Assembly: GCF_025152745.1 (NCBI RefSeq)
Contig: NZ_CP104040.1
Location: forward strand, 4,791,629 to 4,855,628
Origin: Rhizobium sp. WSM4643
GTDB taxonomy: Bacteria > Pseudomonadota > Alphaproteobacteria > Rhizobiales > Rhizobiaceae
Length of the DNA: 64,000 nt
Direction: 5' to 3'
The translations under genes were made by a program, and so were the position numbers. Shown here piece after piece: positions 50,559 through 58,197 of this stretch (its first letter is position 1; each line of letters opens with the position of its first letter). The notes beneath the pieces are model-generated. The model was not told the origin of the DNA. It saw nothing but the letters and a program-made list of their open reading frames with translations, and did no database searches.

Positions 50559-52220
50559 TCAACCAAGCCGGATATAGGGCACGTCCTTCTTCGCCACCTC
50601 ATCAAGCGCCTCCTCGTAACCCGCATCGGCGTAACGCATGACGCCAAGCGCCGTGTCGTTGGTCAGCGCATGGTCGAGCCGTTCGTCGGCGGCATCCGTG
50701 CCGTCGGCGACGACGGTGACGCCGCAGCTCGTCATGTAGCCGGCATAGCCGCCGCCGCCGGAATGGACGACGACCAGATCGGCCATCGACGAGCAGAGCA
50801 TCATCGCATCGATCAGCGGCCAGTCGGCGATCGCATCGGAGCCGTCCTTCATTCGCTCGGTCATGATATTCGGATGCGCCATGGCGCCGGCGTCGAGATG
50901 GTCACGGGAGAAGGCAACCGGCCCTTTGAGCGTGCCGTCTGCCACAAGCGTGTTGACGCGGCGTGCGAGTGCCGTGCGTTCGCCGTGGCCGAGCCAGGCG
51001 ATGCGCGCCGGTAGCCCCTCGAAGGGCACGTGCTCGCGCGCCAGCCGGATCCAGTTGGTGATAATCTTGTTATCAGGGAACATCTCGAGCAGCAAATCGT
51101 CGATCCGGGCGATATCGCTCTCCTCGCCCGATAGCGCCATCCAGCGGAATGGGCCGATCGCCCGGGCGAACAGCGGCCTCAGATAGGCTTCGGTGAAAAT
51201 TGGAATGTCGAAGGCATTCGCAACGCCGCCCGCTTTGGCCTGCGTGCGGATCAGATTGCCGTTGTCGAAGACTTCCGAGCCGCGCTTCTGGAATTCCAGC
51301 ATCGCCGTCACATGCTCGACGATCGAGGCGCGACTTGCCGCCATCAATTGCCCCTGGCCGTCGTCACGCAGGCCCTTGACCTGCTCGAGGCTCATGCCCT
51401 TCGGCACGTAGCCATAGACGAGGTCATGCGCCGAGGTCTGGTCGGTGACGATATCAGGCACGATGCCGCGCCGGGCGATTTCCGGATAGACCTCCGCCGC
51501 ATTGCCGACGAGGCCGACGGAAAGCGCCCGCCTGTCCTTCACCGCCGCATCGATCATCTGAAGGGCGGTATCGAGATCGGGTGCGATTTCCTGGAGATAA
51601 CCGATCTGCTGGCGCTTGCGGGCGCGTTCCGGGTCTATGTCGACGCAGAGGATCGCAGCGCCTGCCATACGGCCGGCAAGCGGCTGCGCCCCGCCCATGC
51701 CGCCGAGGCCGGCCGTCAGCACGAACCGCCCGAGGAGATCGCCGCCGAAGCGCCGCTCGGCGATGCGCATGAAGATCTCGTAGGTGCCCTGGATGACGCC
51801 TTGGCTGCCGATATATTGCCAGGCGCCGGCTGTCAGCCCGCCCCAGCAGATCAGTCCCTTGCGCTGCAACTCGTAGAACACTTCGGCCTTTGCCCATTGC
51901 CCGACGATATTGCAGTTCGCCATGATGACCAGCGGCGCCTTGGCATGCGTCCGAACGAGCCCGATCGGCTTGCCGGACTGGATCAGCAGCGTCTGGTCCT
52001 CTTCCATCTCGGTCAGCGCCTTGACGATGCCCTTGTGCGCCGCCCAGTTGCGGGCCGCCTTGCCGAGCGCGGCATAGACGATCAGATTGTCGGGATCCTC
52101 ACCGACGGAGAGCACGTTTTCGAGCAGCCGCAGCAGCGCTTCCTGCCGCCAGCCCTTGGCGCGCAGCTCCGGCCCGCCGGGGATCGGAAATTTCGGATGA
52201 CGTGGATTGGCCTTCGGCAT
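50559..52220 (-). CDS. Urocanase (HutU) family protein, divergent paralogue
   Basis: 553 aa. NAD-binding core GLGGMGGAQPLAGRMAGAAILCVDIDPERARKRQQIGYL; VGLVGNAAEV; GIVPDIVTDQTSAHD; ERMKDGSDAIADWPLIDAMMLCSSMADLVVVHSGGGGYAGYMTSCG; ADAGYEEALD. Urocanases hydrate urocanate to imidazolone propionate. The canonical HHGGGVGMGYS segment reads HSGGGGYAGYM here, so substrate or efficiency may differ. Start MPKANPRHPKF at 52220 with GAGG upstream. Last gene of the minus-strand cluster, 228 bp after the TfoX-like gene. Confidence 0.85.
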   Translation of the reverse strand: MPKANPRHPKFPIPGGPELRAKGWRQEALLRLLENVLSVGEDPDNLIVYAALGKAARNWAAHKGIVKALTEMEEDQTLLIQSGKPIGLVRTHAKAPLVIMANCNIVGQWAKAEVFYELQRKGLICWGGLTAGAWQYIGSQGVIQGTYEIFMRIAERRFGGDLLGRFVLTAGLGGMGGAQPLAGRMAGAAILCVDIDPERARKRQQIGYLQEIAPDLDTALQMIDAAVKDRRALSVGLVGNAAEVYPEIARRGIVPDIVTDQTSAHDLVYGYVPKGMSLEQVKGLRDDGQGQLMAASRASIVEHVTAMLEFQKRGSEVFDNGNLIRTQAKAGGVANAFDIPIFTEAYLRPLFARAIGPFRWMALSGEESDIARIDDLLLEMFPDNKIITNWIRLAREHVPFEGLPARIAWLGHGERTALARRVNTLVADGTLKGPVAFSRDHLDAGAMAHPNIMTERMKDGSDAIADWPLIDAMMLCSSMADLVVVHSGGGGYAGYMTSCGVTVVADGTDAADERLDHALTNDTALGVMRYADAGYEEALDEVAKKDVPYIRLG

Positions 52221-52249
52221 CGTGGGTTCCTCGTTTGGTTGCTTTTCCC

Positions 52250-52440
52250 TTCTCCCCTCGGGGGTCCGAAGGACGGGTCGAGACCTGTGGCTCGACCCCG
52301 GTTGGTGGCCCGAAGGGTCGGAAGGGGGCTGCACGGCATGCACTTGCCTGCCTTCGCTTGCGCTCAGGCACTCGCGGCTTTGCCGCTCGCCCCCACCTGT
52401 CCTTCGGACATCTTCTCCCCGCTGGGGAGAAGGGGAAAAG
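52250..52440. repeat. Rhizobial intergenic palindromic repeat (two hairpins)
   Basis: Between the TfoX-like and urocanase-like genes. The right part contains TGTCC-ttc-GGACA (52398-52410) and CTTCTCCCC-gct-GGGGAGAAG (52412-52432); the left part has a related CTTCTCCCCTCGGGG stretch near 52249-52264. The sequence style is common in rhizobial intergenic regions. Confidence 0.7.
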
Positions 52441-52448
52441 CTCAGTCT

Positions 52449-52778
52449 TTATTTCTCCGGCATCGATTCCACATAGGCGAGTGCCGCATCGAGCAGACGC
52501 CGTCTCAGGGCATCGTCGCCGTAAACCTCGGCATTGCCTCGCACCCAGCCATGCATCACCCTTTCGCCCGACAGCATCCGGATCACGCCTGGCAGTGCCA
52601 GCGCCCAGCCGTCATTGCCCTTGCCGAGACGGATCAGCATGCCGTCATGGCGCGCGCAGCAGAGAAGATTGCCGTTGAGCATGAAGGCCAAGCCGCCGAA
52701 CATGGATTTCTCGGCAAGGCCCGGCCGACCGCCGAGTTCCTCACGCATCAGTTCTTCGAGACCGGGATCGCGCGCCAT
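52449..52778 (-). CDS. TfoX N-terminal domain protein
   Basis: 109 aa with the TfoX_N fold only: EKSMFGGLAFMLNGNLLCCARHDGMLIRLG in the first half, MHGWVRGNAEVYGDDALRRRLLDAALAYVES after. TfoX/Sxy regulates competence in gammaproteobacteria, but the isolated N-terminal domain occurs widely with unknown function. It begins 3 bp after the DUF917 stop, thus within the same transcript. Confidence 0.82.
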   Translation of the reverse strand: MARDPGLEELMREELGGRPGLAEKSMFGGLAFMLNGNLLCCARHDGMLIRLGKGNDGWALALPGVIRMLSGERVMHGWVRGNAEVYGDDALRRRLLDAALAYVESMPEK

Positions 52779-52781
52779 GGC

Positions 52782-53879
52782 TCAGGCCCTCGTTGCCAGT
52801 GCATAACGTGCGATCTCGATCCCCATCGCCTTTTCGACGACGGGGTAGACGGTCGGATCGAGCACGCTTGCCGACAGCGGAATGATATCCATCGGCACAT
52901 GCAGGATGAAGACATGCATGCCCTCCTTGAGCTGGCCGACGCTGAGCGGTTCGCCCTCCGGTGAAAGCGTGGTGATGACCGCGGGGAAAGTCGCAAGCCT
53001 TTTGCCATCCGCATCGTCCACCGCCATATATTCGTTCATCACATGCAGCGTCACCGACATTTCGCCTGCGCCGACGGTGATCGTGCCGATGTCGAAGGCT
53101 TCCTTGGTGTAGACGACCTCCCTGCGGGTAATGATCCCTTCGGCAAGGATATGCCCGCCCGTCGTCTTGCAGATCGCGTCGATGATGGCTGATCCGCCGC
53201 GCTTCTCCGCCGCGATAATTGCTTCGCCGAGCGCAAGCGCCATTGAGATGCCGCCGAGCGCCGCATGGGTGCGGACATAGGAGGCCTTCAGCGGATTGCG
53301 GCAGCTGGCGATGAAGCCGCCGGATTGGTCGGCAGCAGTGCGCAGCACCGGCGAAATCTTTGCCGTCGCCCCTTTCACCACCAGCTCGATGTAACGGTTC
53401 TCGGTGCGATTGCCGCCGACAGCGGTCTGGATCATCGGCTCGGGCGAACCGGCCATGCCGATCGACCCCATGTCGCCTGTCGGGTGCGCGCGGATGTCGC
53501 CGACCGCGTCGACCACCTTGGTGCCGAGGATTGCCGACGGCAACCAGCCGTTCAGCGTCGAGGATTTGCCGTTCTGGCCGATGATCAGCCCGGAAAGCTT
53601 TTCGCCGAGCGCCTCCTGCAGCAATTGCACCGCCTTCACATAGTCGATGCCCTGCATTTCCCAGGGCGTCGTCGAGGCCGGTGCGCCGATCGCGGCTGCG
53701 GTCGCAATCCAGTCCTCGTCCTGCAATTCGTCGATCGAGACAAGCTCCGGCTTGCCGACATTGACGGCGGCAAGCCCAAGCATCCGCCCGTGATCGGCCC
53801 AGCCGCCGCCGCCGGCGGCATAGACGGAGCCGCCCTTGACGGCAGCTTCCACGTCCTTCTCAACGAGTATGCGTCCCAT
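52782..53879 (-). CDS. DUF917 family protein
   Basis: 365 aa. The two-domain DUF917 layout is seen: N-terminal part with GGGWADHGRMLG, SIDELQDEDWIATAAAIGAPASTTPW and IIGQNGKSSTLNGWLPSAILGTKVVDAVGDIRAHPTGDMGSIGMAG; C-terminal HGGG-type domain with GEMSVTLHVMNEYMAVDDADG. Members often accompany hydantoinase-type genes and are unassigned. Start overlaps the M20 gene end by 20 bp; GGAG before ATG. Translationally coupled in the cluster. Confidence 0.87.
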   Translation of the reverse strand: MGRILVEKDVEAAVKGGSVYAAGGGGWADHGRMLGLAAVNVGKPELVSIDELQDEDWIATAAAIGAPASTTPWEMQGIDYVKAVQLLQEALGEKLSGLIIGQNGKSSTLNGWLPSAILGTKVVDAVGDIRAHPTGDMGSIGMAGSPEPMIQTAVGGNRTENRYIELVVKGATAKISPVLRTAADQSGGFIASCRNPLKASYVRTHAALGGISMALALGEAIIAAEKRGGSAIIDAICKTTGGHILAEGIITRREVVYTKEAFDIGTITVGAGEMSVTLHVMNEYMAVDDADGKRLATFPAVITTLSPEGEPLSVGQLKEGMHVFILHVPMDIIPLSASVLDPTVYPVVEKAMGIEIARYALATRA

Positions 53880-55155
53880 TCGCCTTCTCCTGATTCAAGC
53901 CCCTGTTAATCAAGCCCTTGTCCATCTCGCGCACCGCCTCGAAAAGCACGGCGGCGCCGAGTGCGATATCGTCGTTGTCTGCCCACTCGTCGGCCGAATG
54001 GCTGCGGCCGTCCCGGCAGGGCACGAAGATCATCGCCGCCGGCGCCACCTTGGCGATCCAGGCCGTATCGTGCCCCGCGCCGGAGGCCATGCGCCGATGT
54101 TTCGCGCCGACCCGTTCGCAGGCAGCCTCCAAGATCGACAGCAGCCCGGCATCGCCAGGCGTCGGCTGATTGTCGGAAACCCGGTTCGGCGTTTTGATCG
54201 TCACGCCATAGGCCCCCGCCAGCTTTTCGACATGGCCGTCGAGCCAGCGGCAGAATGCCTGCATGTCGGCGCGGATTTCGGCACGGCCATCGATCAGCAG
54301 CACCACCTTCGAAGGCACGACATTGGCGGCGTTCGGCTCGATCGTGAATTCGCCAACCGTCGCTGCGAAATGCCCCGGCGTTTTGGCAAATTCGGCGGCG
54401 GCATTGCGGATATCGAGCACCAGCTGTGACGCCGCCACCAGCGCGTCCGCCCGGCGGTCCATCGGCGTCGTGCCGGCATGGTCGGCCCGCCCTTCGACGG
54501 TGATCTCGATGCGGGTGATGCCCGATATCGCGGTGACGATGCCGATATCCTCCTTTTCAGCTTCGAGCACCGGGCCCTGTTCGATATGAAGCTCCAGAAA
54601 GCCTGCTATATCGGGTCTGTTCTGCTGCATCAGCACGTCAGGTCGGCCGCCGACCTCGGCGATGCCCTTGGCCAGGTCGCGCCCGTCGCTGACGCGCGAA
54701 AGCCAGGCCTCCGGCAGTTGGCCGGTCATGCCGCGGCTGCCGATGCAGGACACGCCGAAGATGCTGACCTCCTCGGCAAGGAAGTCGACGATTTCGAGAT
54801 CGTGATCGAGTTCGATATTCTGATCGCGCAGCGCCCGCGCCACCTCCAGCGCCGAGATCACCCCGGCAATGCCGTCAAAGCGGCCGCCATCCGGCACCGT
54901 GTCGGAATGCGAACCGGCCATGATCGTGCCGAGCCACGGTTTCCGGCCTGTCCGCCGTCCGATCAGATTGCCGGCGGCATCGATCCGTGTTTCCAGTCCC
55001 GCCGCCTTCATCCGCGCTTCGATATAGGCCCGCCCGTCGAGGAAGAGCGGCGAGAAGGCTCGCCGCGTCCAGGGATGCCCCGGCTCGGTAATCCCGGCCA
55101 GCGCCTCGATATCGTCAGCGATCCGGCTGGCATTGACGGGAAGATTGCGGCTCAT
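53860..55155 (-). CDS. M20 family Zn-dependent hydrolase (N-carbamoyl-amino-acid / allantoate amidohydrolase type)
   Basis: 431 aa. Di-zinc site motifs: GSHSDTVPDGGRFDGIAGVISALEV (His-x-Asp and bridging Asp), FLAEEVSIFGVSCIGSRGMTG (Glu-Glu), ELHIEQGPVLEAEKEDIGIVTAISGI (His), and the dimerisation lid region with RADHAGTTPMDRRADAL. This group hydrolyses N-carbamoyl amino acids, allantoate or ureidoglycine, releasing ammonia and CO2 or related products. Overlaps the amidohydrolase gene by 4 bp. Together they fit a hydantoinase-carbamoylase pair. Confidence 0.9.
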   Translation of the reverse strand: MSRNLPVNASRIADDIEALAGITEPGHPWTRRAFSPLFLDGRAYIEARMKAAGLETRIDAAGNLIGRRTGRKPWLGTIMAGSHSDTVPDGGRFDGIAGVISALEVARALRDQNIELDHDLEIVDFLAEEVSIFGVSCIGSRGMTGQLPEAWLSRVSDGRDLAKGIAEVGGRPDVLMQQNRPDIAGFLELHIEQGPVLEAEKEDIGIVTAISGITRIEITVEGRADHAGTTPMDRRADALVAASQLVLDIRNAAAEFAKTPGHFAATVGEFTIEPNAANVVPSKVVLLIDGRAEIRADMQAFCRWLDGHVEKLAGAYGVTIKTPNRVSDNQPTPGDAGLLSILEAACERVGAKHRRMASGAGHDTAWIAKVAPAAMIFVPCRDGRSHSADEWADNDDIALGAAVLFEAVREMDKGLINRGLNQEKANGTHTR

Positions 55156-56531
55156 GCGAAGGCTCCCGCAATGACCTGGCGCGGCAGCGGCCGCACGAAC
55201 CTGCCGGTGCCGGGCTTGGCCAGCACCTTGGCACCCTCGGCGATCTTTTCGCCCCTGAGGTAGGTGGCCGAGACGGTCCAGGGCAGGCGGATGCCGTTAT
55301 ACGGGCTCCAGCCGACGACGTTGTTGCTGCTTGCCGATGCATCATAGACGCTTTCGCGCGGCTCGAGCACGACGATATCGGCATCCTTGCCCGGGGTCAG
55401 CGCACCTTTGATATGGTCGAGCCGGAAATGCTTCGCCGGGTTTTCCGCCATTAGCCTGGCTGCCCATGTCAGCGGAATGCCGCGTTCGACGGCGCCTTTG
55501 ATGAAAAGCGGCATCATCACCTCGAGGCCGGGAATGCCGGAGGCGTTGGCGAGCATGTCGGGGTTGGTCTTGCGGTTTTCCGACCAGCTGACGTGATCGG
55601 TCGAGACCAGCCAGACATCGCCCTCGGCCACCTTCCGCCAGAGCGTCTCCACCTCGGCACGCGGCCGCACCGGCGGATTGATCTTCGCCTTGCCGCCGAG
55701 CCGCTTCACGTCGTTTTCCTCGTCGAGCGTCAAGTAGTGAATGCAGCATTCCACCGTCGCCGCAAAGCCGTCGCGGCGATAGGCGCGCGCAATATCGTAG
55801 CCGCGCCCGAGCGAGCAGTGCACCACATGCGCCGGGCAGCCGGTATTGGCGCCGGTCTCGAAGATCGTGTGCATCGCCAGCAGCTCGGTGATCGGCGGCC
55901 GCGACAGGCCGTGCGCCCGCCAGTCGGTGATGCCGCTCACCTTCACCTGCTCCATATAAGTGCGCACCGCCTCGTCGTCTTCATTGTGCACGCCCGCCGT
56001 CAGCCCTGTCGGCGCGATTGCCGCAAAGCAGGCGTCAAGCAGGGCCGGCGGAATGCGCGGAAAGCGCTTGGGGTCGGTGCCGAAGGTCGAGAATTTGAAG
56101 GCGGCAACGCCTGCCTCCACCATTTCGCGGATCCGTGCGGGGCCTTCTTCCGGATCGACGGTGCCGTAAAGCGCGAAATCGACGCGCGCTTGCGGACTGG
56201 CATGGTCGATCTTCCGCTTCACCGCCGCCGCCGAGCAGACGAGATTGCCTTCGTCATAGGGCATATCGACAATGACAGTCACCCCGCCAGCCGCCGCCGA
56301 GCGCGTCGACCAGAGGAAATCCTCTTGGTCCTTCTGGGAAAGCGAATGCACCTGCGCGTCGATCGCGCCGGGCAGGATCAGCGCTTTTCCGAGCAGATGC
56401 CGTTCGCGGCCCGCAGGCGGCACGCCGAGGCCGACCTCGGCGATTTTGCCGTCGCGCACGGCGACATAACCCTCGTCGAGAATGCGCTCCGGCAGCACCA
56501 CCGTGCCCTGCAGAACGAGATCGAAATCCAT
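55152..56531 (-). CDS. Cyclic amidohydrolase (dihydroorotase/hydantoinase/allantoinase-like)
   Basis: 459 aa metal-dependent hydrolase of the amidohydrolase superfamily. Residues 54-62 read PGAIDAQVH: the first metal-binding pair is D-x-Q-x-H rather than D-x-H-x-H, a form known in some dihydroorotase-like proteins. Others: AAAGGVTVIVDMPYD, VHCSLGRGYDIARAY, and VSTDHVSWSENRKTNPD (Asp). C-terminal KDADIVVLEPRESVYDA. Excellent GGGAGG ribosome site. Second gene of the cluster, 97 bp after the lyase-like gene; a RIME-like hairpin lies between. Confidence 0.88.
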   Translation of the reverse strand: MDFDLVLQGTVVLPERILDEGYVAVRDGKIAEVGLGVPPAGRERHLLGKALILPGAIDAQVHSLSQKDQEDFLWSTRSAAAGGVTVIVDMPYDEGNLVCSAAAVKRKIDHASPQARVDFALYGTVDPEEGPARIREMVEAGVAAFKFSTFGTDPKRFPRIPPALLDACFAAIAPTGLTAGVHNEDDEAVRTYMEQVKVSGITDWRAHGLSRPPITELLAMHTIFETGANTGCPAHVVHCSLGRGYDIARAYRRDGFAATVECCIHYLTLDEENDVKRLGGKAKINPPVRPRAEVETLWRKVAEGDVWLVSTDHVSWSENRKTNPDMLANASGIPGLEVMMPLFIKGAVERGIPLTWAARLMAENPAKHFRLDHIKGALTPGKDADIVVLEPRESVYDASASSNNVVGWSPYNGIRLPWTVSATYLRGEKIAEGAKVLAKPGTGRFVRPLPRQVIAGAFA

Positions 56532-56628: not shown

Positions 56629-58197
56629 TTAGCTGGTCAGCCGCTCCTCGACACGCTCCTGCGATCCGAGGGCGAAGAAATCGTCGAAGGACGCGATCGG
56701 AACCTGTTCGGTCAGCTTCGAGACGAAGTCGTCCGAGCCGAGCTCCTCCTCGATCGCCTCGACCTCAGCCGAAAGCGGCCGGTCGACCGTATAGAAATCC
56801 GCATGTTTGCGCACGACCTCATAGAGCATGGCGGCGACACCCTTCGGCTCATCGCCGAGAATGTCGATTGCCTGGGCAGACAGCAGCGCCTCGAGGGCTG
56901 CGAGACGCTTCAGCGCCCGCATCTGCCGGTCGAAGCGCTCGATGACGAGCGGCAGGAAGGCAGCTTCGTCCTCCAGCCCGGCCGCAACAACCAGTGACTG
57001 GGCCGACACGGGATTGGACATCGACAGCACGCGCGAGAAGATCTCGCCGGCAAGTTTGATGATCGGCCCGAAACCGGTGGCAATCCGCCCCGGCGGCACG
57101 AGATTGACCGGCAGGTCGCGCCGCTGGCCGTTGCCGAGAATGACGCACCGGTTGAAGGCGTTGCGCGCTGCATGCGCCATACAGAGTGCTGCCGATTCGA
57201 GCAGGATTGTCACATCGAGCGGCAGCGAACCGCCCGACGTCATCACCCGGCCTTCGACCACGACGGGATTGTCGTCCGAGCGCCCGGTGGCGGCAAGGAT
57301 CTTGTGGCCGGTCGATAAGAGGTTTTCGATCACCGCGCCGAACACCTGCGCGATCATGCGCAGGCTGAGCGGATCCTGCACATGCGTTGCAACGGGCCAG
57401 TTCCATTCGTCGGCGGCATTGCAAAGCCAGGCGCCGATCAACGCTTCGCGCGCCGTTCCGACATGCCGGACCGCCTTCCAGGGATCGCGGGAAGCACCGA
57501 GCGCGCCGGCCGCCATCATCGCCGTTGCCAGCAGGACGCGGATCGAGGCAGCAGCATTGCGCGTCGTTTCCGCCGCCGAGGCAAAGCTCACCGCATTGAT
57601 GCTGAGCGAGGCGAGGCTATCGCGCGGCGCCATCTGCATCGGTTCCAGCCCGGCCGCCTGGAAAGCCTCGGCCGCCTGCATCCGGTTGCCGCGATAGATC
57701 GCTTCGCCGACGCCGGTCAATACCGCGCCGATCTGTCCCATCAGGCCGATATCCGCACAGCCGATCGAGCCGGTACGGCGCACGACCGGAATGAGATCGG
57801 CCTCGAGCATCCTGATATAGGCCTGGATCAGCTCCGGCGTGCAGCCGACTTGGCCGGTCAACGCCGTGTTGATACGGATCGCCATGGCATTGCGCACGAT
57901 ATTGCAGGAAAAGGGTGTGCCGGTGCCGAAATGATGGGCCCGCACCAGGCCGAGATTGAAGGTGTCGAGTTCGTCGGCCGACCATTCCACATCCTTCATG
58001 GCGCCGACGCCTGTCGTCGAGCCGTAAACGGGCATGCCGGAGGCAATCGCATCCTCGACGACCTCGCGGGCGATTGCGATGCGAGCCATGCCTGTCGCCG
58101 AAGCCGAAATCACAGCCTTGCCCGCACCAATCGTCACCATCTCGGCAAAACCGAGCGGTCGTCCGGAAAGTTCGATGCCAGGGCGTTCGTGCTTCAT
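56629..58197 (-). CDS. HAL/PAL family ammonia-lyase homologue lacking the MIO triad
   Basis: 522 aa. Clear histidine/phenylalanine ammonia-lyase fold: YGSTTGVG at residues 58-65 (catalytic Tyr loop), HVQDPLSLRMIAQVFGA, GRSDDNPVVVEGRVMTSGGSLP. The MIO-forming segment, normally G-S-x-G-A-S-G-D-L, reads GSIGCADIGLM at 143-153, with Cys147-Ala148-Asp149 in place of Ala-Ser-Gly. Without that Ser the MIO prosthetic group is not expected to form in the usual way, so activity as a classical ammonia-lyase is doubtful. First gene of the minus-strand cluster with GGGAG before ATG. Confidence 0.85.
   Translation of the reverse strand: MKHERPGIELSGRPLGFAEMVTIGAGKAVISASATGMARIAIAREVVEDAIASGMPVYGSTTGVGAMKDVEWSADELDTFNLGLVRAHHFGTGTPFSCNIVRNAMAIRINTALTGQVGCTPELIQAYIRMLEADLIPVVRRTGSIGCADIGLMGQIGAVLTGVGEAIYRGNRMQAAEAFQAAGLEPMQMAPRDSLASLSINAVSFASAAETTRNAAASIRVLLATAMMAAGALGASRDPWKAVRHVGTAREALIGAWLCNAADEWNWPVATHVQDPLSLRMIAQVFGAVIENLLSTGHKILAATGRSDDNPVVVEGRVMTSGGSLPLDVTILLESAALCMAHAARNAFNRCVILGNGQRRDLPVNLVPPGRIATGFGPIIKLAGEIFSRVLSMSNPVSAQSLVVAAGLEDEAAFLPLVIERFDRQMRALKRLAALEALLSAQAIDILGDEPKGVAAMLYEVVRKHADFYTVDRPLSAEVEAIEEELGSDDFVSKLTEQVPIASFDDFFALGSQERVEERLTS

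Follow-up and report, generated by a model that had tools for sequence, protein, structure and literature searches.

We have identified a putative ergothionase (ergothioneine trimethylamine-lyase) in Rhizobium sp. WSM4643, which the gene at 56629..58197 very probably encodes. Positions are those of a 64,000-nucleotide stretch of contig NZ_CP104040.1 (4,791,629 to 4,855,628), hereafter called the window. The assignment is made because of the operon in which the gene lies, its co-occurrence with later pathway enzymes, a loop deletion, key lysines and the tree, and not because of sequence identity. The protein and its relatives, referred to here as the Rhizobium type, most likely represent a divergent ergothionase lineage of the known pathway. 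From these comparisons we infer the substrate, the release of trimethylamine, the absence of the 4-methylideneimidazol-5-one (MIO) cofactor and the direction of the pathway.

The lyase and its shortened loop

In a family profile search, the lyase was recovered as a member of the aromatic lyase family PF00221 (277 bits), whose fold is the one expected of an ergothionase. It did not reach the hutH model of histidine ammonia-lyase (HAL), TIGR01225 (206 bits vs a cut-off of 539), and no Ala-Ser-Gly triad, the MIO precursor that marks HutH, was found at its loop position. The gene and the codons discussed below are as follows.

56629..58197, minus strand: lyase, proposed ergothionase (ergothioneine trimethylamine-lyase) of the Rhizobium type, 522 amino acids (open reading frame, PF00221, fold model, nearest solved relative)
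57994..57996, minus strand: Lys68 codon (Lys in 95/97 and Arg in 2/97 clade rows; Lys in 3/3 Treponema denticola-type rows; Ala in 5/5 HAL rows)
57751..57759, minus strand: codons of Cys147-Ala148-Asp149, the shortened loop where HAL has Ala-Ser-Gly-Asp (alignments)
57055..57057, minus strand: Lys381 codon (Lys in 97/97 clade rows, 3/3 T. denticola-type rows and 4/4 rows of del1, a group with a one-residue loop deletion; Val or Ile in 5 HAL rows)
56971..56973, minus strand: Glu409 codon (pairs with Glu411 of 6s7j_A; unchanged in all 31 lyase rows of the alignment and in 97/97 clade rows)

The sequence-only reading of this gene had described an ammonia-lyase homologue with Cys-Ala-Asp in place of Ala-Ser-Gly at residues 147-149, and alignment bears out both those residues and the loss of the triad at that site. 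The implied one-to-one correspondence was off by one, being the product of an ungapped alignment. Once the necessary gap is introduced, G-A-S-G-D-L of HAL faces G-C-A-gap-D-I, Asp149 pairs with the conserved Asp immediately after Ala-Ser-Gly, and Cys-Ala plus a one-residue deletion takes the place of the triad. The QDPLSLR and DDNP regions had also been taken as kept. Several active-site positions are indeed intact, but Leu277 of QDPLSLR stands where 5/5 HAL rows have Tyr, and D308, the first Asp of DDNP, is present in 18/18 ergothionase-type rows and 0/14 others. Structure prediction, which had been proposed as a check, returned an intact predicted fold with a model pLDDT (predicted local distance difference test score) of 92.

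Conservation was assessed across a clade of 97 relatives at 37-98% identity. Compared over residues 21-500 they amount to 94 distinct proteins, and all 97 rows were kept, including two pairs of apparently duplicate records (L034/L069 and L035/L065). The named loci used below are the best 80 of 161 relatives and belong to Rhizobium, Shinella and unnamed Rhizobiales/Hyphomicrobiales. The shortened loop occurs in every clade row (95 GCA-D, one GTA-D and one GAA-D), so the change is clade-wide (CA-D in 95/97), and with Ala-Ser-Gly in 0/97 relatives it is not a single mutation among relatives that mostly retain the triad. The 28 other PF00221 rows comprise 24 with GASGD, three with a one-residue deletion and other letters, and one with a three-residue deletion. 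Tyr58, Asp149, Lys381 and Glu409 are invariant in 97/97 clade rows, with Lys (95) or Arg (2) at residue 68. A phylum-wide search for the window lyase gave matches in only 4 of 299 genomes, namely its own and three of its genus.

The best solved relative, both by sequence and by fold, is the ergothionase of T. denticola (PDB 6s7j, 6s7q). The two proteins share the PF00221 fold, a loop one residue shorter, Lys at positions 68 and 381, Tyr58, Arg280, Glu409, D308 and G377. They differ in that identity is 25%, in that the T. denticola loop (GEG-D) has Glu where the window clade has Cys, and in that they occupy separate tree branches. The T. denticola enzyme reportedly has four essential catalytic residues; the alignment with it shows matches at Tyr58, Lys68, Lys381 and Glu409 and a mismatch at the loop Glu. 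In Burkholderia arboris (L188) and Paracoccus denitrificans (L192), the pathway loci encode lyases that are 35% identical to the T. denticola enzyme, scoring 286-298 bits against it and 137-144 bits against the window protein. Like the window lyase, they have a shortened loop and lie near the same hydratase and desulfurase, whereas their loop reads GEA-D and their identity to the window protein is 27-29%. The other pathway genes of L188 score above the same equivalog cut-offs as those applied to the window. HutH, represented by the copy in the same genome (L001) and by that of P. putida (1b8f), shares the fold and several active-site positions with the window lyase but keeps Ala-Ser-Gly and has Ala at 68, Val or Ile at 381 and Tyr at 277.

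A tree of 32 rows (loop columns excluded, unrooted, one method) united the window clade and the T. denticola type against HAL, two other loop-deleted groups and a group with Ala-Ser-Gly, with support of 97/94. By this branch, as by its best PDB match, the lyase groups with a characterised ergothionase rather than with HAL. A first tree containing T. denticola alone drew a long-branch warning, which disappeared after L188 and L192 were added, with the grouping unchanged; the 32-row tree retains a flag on L009 for its length and one on T. denticola for letter composition.

Other members of the family have also departed from the canonical loop. The window genome encodes a second lyase lacking Ala-Ser-Gly (L002; C4:117819-119306, L147:17819-19306), with the loop GSAGY and three residues missing; beside it are ABC (ATP-binding cassette) transporter genes whose closest resemblance, below cut-off, is to histidine transporters, with hutC, hutH and a urocanase-type gene near. 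This type occurs in 15/101 Rhizobiaceae genomes (E <=1e-100), with a loop of GY plus three gaps in 15/15. The del1 group consists of four rows (L007, L008, L009 = L145:8961-10469, and L169) that have Lys381 but not Lys68; L009 adjoins a glutaminase gene and has a class-III aminotransferase gene near. Two further lyases, L167 and L168, combine an intact Ala-Ser-Gly with a GVGLFKD segment resembling Lys68-Asp69 of ergothionase, and their genomes (G434 and G347) contain thiourocanate hydratase and no lyase of the window clade.

Operon and co-occurrence with pathway enzymes

The lyase gene is followed on the same strand by five genes, partly overlapping, in the order lyase, ErtD, ErtE, desulfurase, TfoX_N protein and hydratase.

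55152..56531, minus strand: ErtD, hydantoin-5-propionate amidohydrolase (NF058538, 777 bits, cut-off 600)
53860..55155, minus strand: ErtE, N-carbamyl-L-glutamate amidohydrolase, overlapping the ErtD stop by 4 bases (NF058540, 634 bits, cut-off 520)
52782..53879, minus strand: thiohydantoin desulfurase (NF058529, 602 bits, cut-off 440)
52449..52778, minus strand: TfoX_N-domain protein between desulfurase and hydratase (PF04993)
50559..52343, minus strand: thiourocanate hydratase (NF058530, 1061 bits, cut-off 930)

Four of these genes thus exceed the equivalog cut-offs of the NCBIfam ergothioneine-utilisation pathway, and no difference from that pathway was found. The true start of the hydratase is probably internal to the listed reading frame, with the family match beginning at residue 59. 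The order lyase-ErtD-ErtE-desulfurase-hydratase is kept in 76/80 named loci, and the TfoX_N-domain gene is found in 68/80. Among the remaining four loci, L081 runs into a contig end and in L126-L128 the lyase stands at the same place by itself; hydratase and desulfurase are located elsewhere in the genomes of L126 and L128, and the L127 genome contains fragments only. NCBIfam release 20.0 contains equivalog models for the later pathway enzymes, and the Burkholderia and Paracoccus lyases matched no model named ergothionase.

Among 297 genomes of the order, the lyase (E <=1e-60) is present in 16, thiourocanate hydratase (above cut-off) in 17 and both in 14, the two counts being taken to cover the same genome set (Fisher p 2e-19, which overstates independence since the genomes are related). 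Hydratase and desulfurase both score above cut-off in 18 of 21 lyase-bearing genomes, linking the lyase to thiourocanate hydratase and later steps, with G259, G322 and G688 as exceptions. The hydratase occurs without a clade lyase in G347, G376 and G434, whose other PF00221 proteins carry Ala-Ser-Gly (5/6) or, in one case in G434, a different one-residue deletion. In three genomes with del1 lyases neither hydratase nor desulfurase scores above cut-off.

Hydratase-desulfurase modules with no lyase match in the stretch examined were also seen in L189, L190 and L193, which are plasmids of Paracoccus aminophilus, Thalassospira marina and Neorhizobium sp. that also carry ErtD and ErtE, and in L157-L159 (G347, G376, G434). 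Transporters near these modules are of the TRAP (tripartite ATP-independent periplasmic) type in L189 and L190 and of the amino-acid ABC type in L193. It is possible that such modules are scavengers of thiourocanate.

Transporter genes were sought with queries from L141, one of 14 relatives outside the 80 named loci. A glycine-betaine-type binding protein (OpuAC) adjoins the lyase in 12 of these 14 (absent from L129 and L142), and a complete ABC transporter, with binding protein, both permeases and ATPase, lies beside it in 11. Ergothioneine is itself a betaine. EgtD was not found in the window genome, in a search whose control matched in 1/14 genomes and below cut-off; because of this result, the organism probably degrades imported ergothioneine.

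Proposed reaction and competing explanations

Without MIO, the lyase would convert ergothioneine (2-thio-histidine betaine) to thiourocanate by eliminating trimethylamine. The hydratase would then form a thiohydantoin, the desulfurase would convert this to hydantoin-5-propionate with release of sulfide, and ErtD and ErtE would yield N-carbamyl-glutamate and L-glutamate, respectively, so that imported ergothioneine would supply the cell with nitrogen, carbon and sulfur. This order of steps follows the family names and what has reportedly been found in Burkholderia sp. HME13. An electrophilic cofactor would be unnecessary because the amine to be expelled is quaternary from the outset and departs readily, and because the thio-imidazole can accept charge; cationic side chains, Lys68 and Lys381 among them, would hold and polarise it. 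The beta-proton would be removed by a conserved base in the Tyr58/Glu409 region. Behind this proposal is the substrate activation that the T. denticola enzyme is said, in an abstract, to perform.

Several observations weigh against an ergothionase assignment. The mean identity of T. denticola-type lyases is lowest with HAL (27.6%), slightly higher with the window clade (28.6%) and highest with the del1 group (32.4%). The window clade and the T. denticola type have 10 positions in common that HAL lacks, against 6 for the reverse, and with T. denticola alone the counts were 12 vs 17. Since these symmetric controls were not clearly in favour, overall identity and shared-position counts were dropped as proof of membership. 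The loop Glu of the T. denticola type is Cys in the window clade (Thr or Ala in two rows), Lys68-Asp69 is also present in the two Ala-Ser-Gly-bearing lyases L167 and L168, and the window lyase matched no model named ergothionase in NCBIfam. Neither the window nor any of the 80 named loci has betaine-type transporter genes next to the operon, and the closest binding protein in the window genome (62% identity) is located away from the operon. Pathway genes are also incomplete in some genomes. G259 has a lyase (L142:8994-10628; 37% identity, CA-D loop, adjoining a LysR regulator) without hydratase or desulfurase above cut-off. In G322 (98% complete) neither enzyme was matched, and its 14-kb contig carries lyase and transporter and then no pathway gene. 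G688 has hydratase and desulfurase in fragments only. These fragments, at L163 of the Shinella sp. UYSO24 genome (G688:C8), contain frame breaks, which either sequencing errors or a pseudogene would explain. At L129 (G015) hydratase and desulfurase are present, and 20 kb of sequence gave no match to ErtD or ErtE. Finally, G434, with a del1 lyase and no clade lyase, has hydratase and desulfurase on another contig than the del1 lyase, so the hydratase is not always paired with the lyase described here.

A decayed, inactive histidine ammonia-lyase would account for the lost MIO triad and the low hutH score, and a normal hutH does exist elsewhere in the genome. This is extremely improbable, as the shortened loop, Tyr58, Lys or Arg at 68, Lys381 and Glu409 are kept in 97/97 relatives down to 37% identity and the operon order is maintained in most named loci; decay was dropped on the 97-row conservation. 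The loop without Ala-Ser-Gly, the conservation of this change throughout the clade and the intact predicted fold make a functional, MIO-independent lyase far likelier, in keeping with the sequence-only reading. That reading had further suggested a new reaction, and here the operon, the closest solved structure and the co-occurrence point instead to ergothionase, a trimethylamine lyase that passages of PMC13405746 already record from T. denticola and Burkholderia and describe, citing Maurer 2019, as lacking MIO.

Two rivals concern the substrate. A trimethylamine lyase belonging to this pathway but preferring oxidised ergothioneine (the sulfonate) would suit the loop residue, which is unlike that of the T. 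denticola type, and the taxonomy, given that PMC13405746 cites an ergothioneine-sulfonate catabolic pathway of Agrobacterium radiobacter and that the named loci are from Rhizobium, Shinella and Rhizobiales/Hyphomicrobiales. Nevertheless, we consider it improbable, as hydratase and desulfurase both exceed the thiourocanate and thiohydantoin cut-offs and a sulfonate would presumably leave a thione-acting desulfurase without a role. A lyase for S-methyl-ergothioneine is less probable still: NCBIfam models for that branch exist and the neighbours match them, but below cut-off (hydratase NF058531, 740 vs 880 bits; desulfurase NF058532, 280 vs 450 bits), whereas the thio versions pass, and this pathway was dropped accordingly. 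Somewhat more credible, though still doubtful, is that the Rhizobium type constitutes a second, mechanistically distinct ergothionase, in which replacement of the loop Glu by a nearly invariant Cys (95/97) alters proton transfer or thione handling and which fills the role of the other type in Burkholderia and Paracoccus. Perhaps Cys147 makes transient contact with the substrate sulfur, or confers a preference for oxidised ergothioneine.

Implications for the family

A search of titles and abstract openings returned nothing about this lyase clade. Passages of PMC13405746 (2026) judge ergothionase to be restricted to few genera, from BLAST with one Burkholderia sequence, and concede that divergent homologues may have been missed; the window clade is likely to be a case of such homologues. 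In the public record of Rhizobium sp. SL42, a protein of this kind is annotated 'aromatic amino acid ammonia-lyase'. The pathway and the MIO-less kind of enzyme were already known; in this lineage the replacement of Glu by Cys may alter mechanism or substrate. Our analysis would reassign a protein annotated as an aromatic amino acid ammonia-lyase to ergothioneine catabolism and place a divergent ergothionase lineage in Rhizobium and its relatives. It also suggests that PF00221 proteins lacking Ala-Ser-Gly can be functional classes rather than products of decay.
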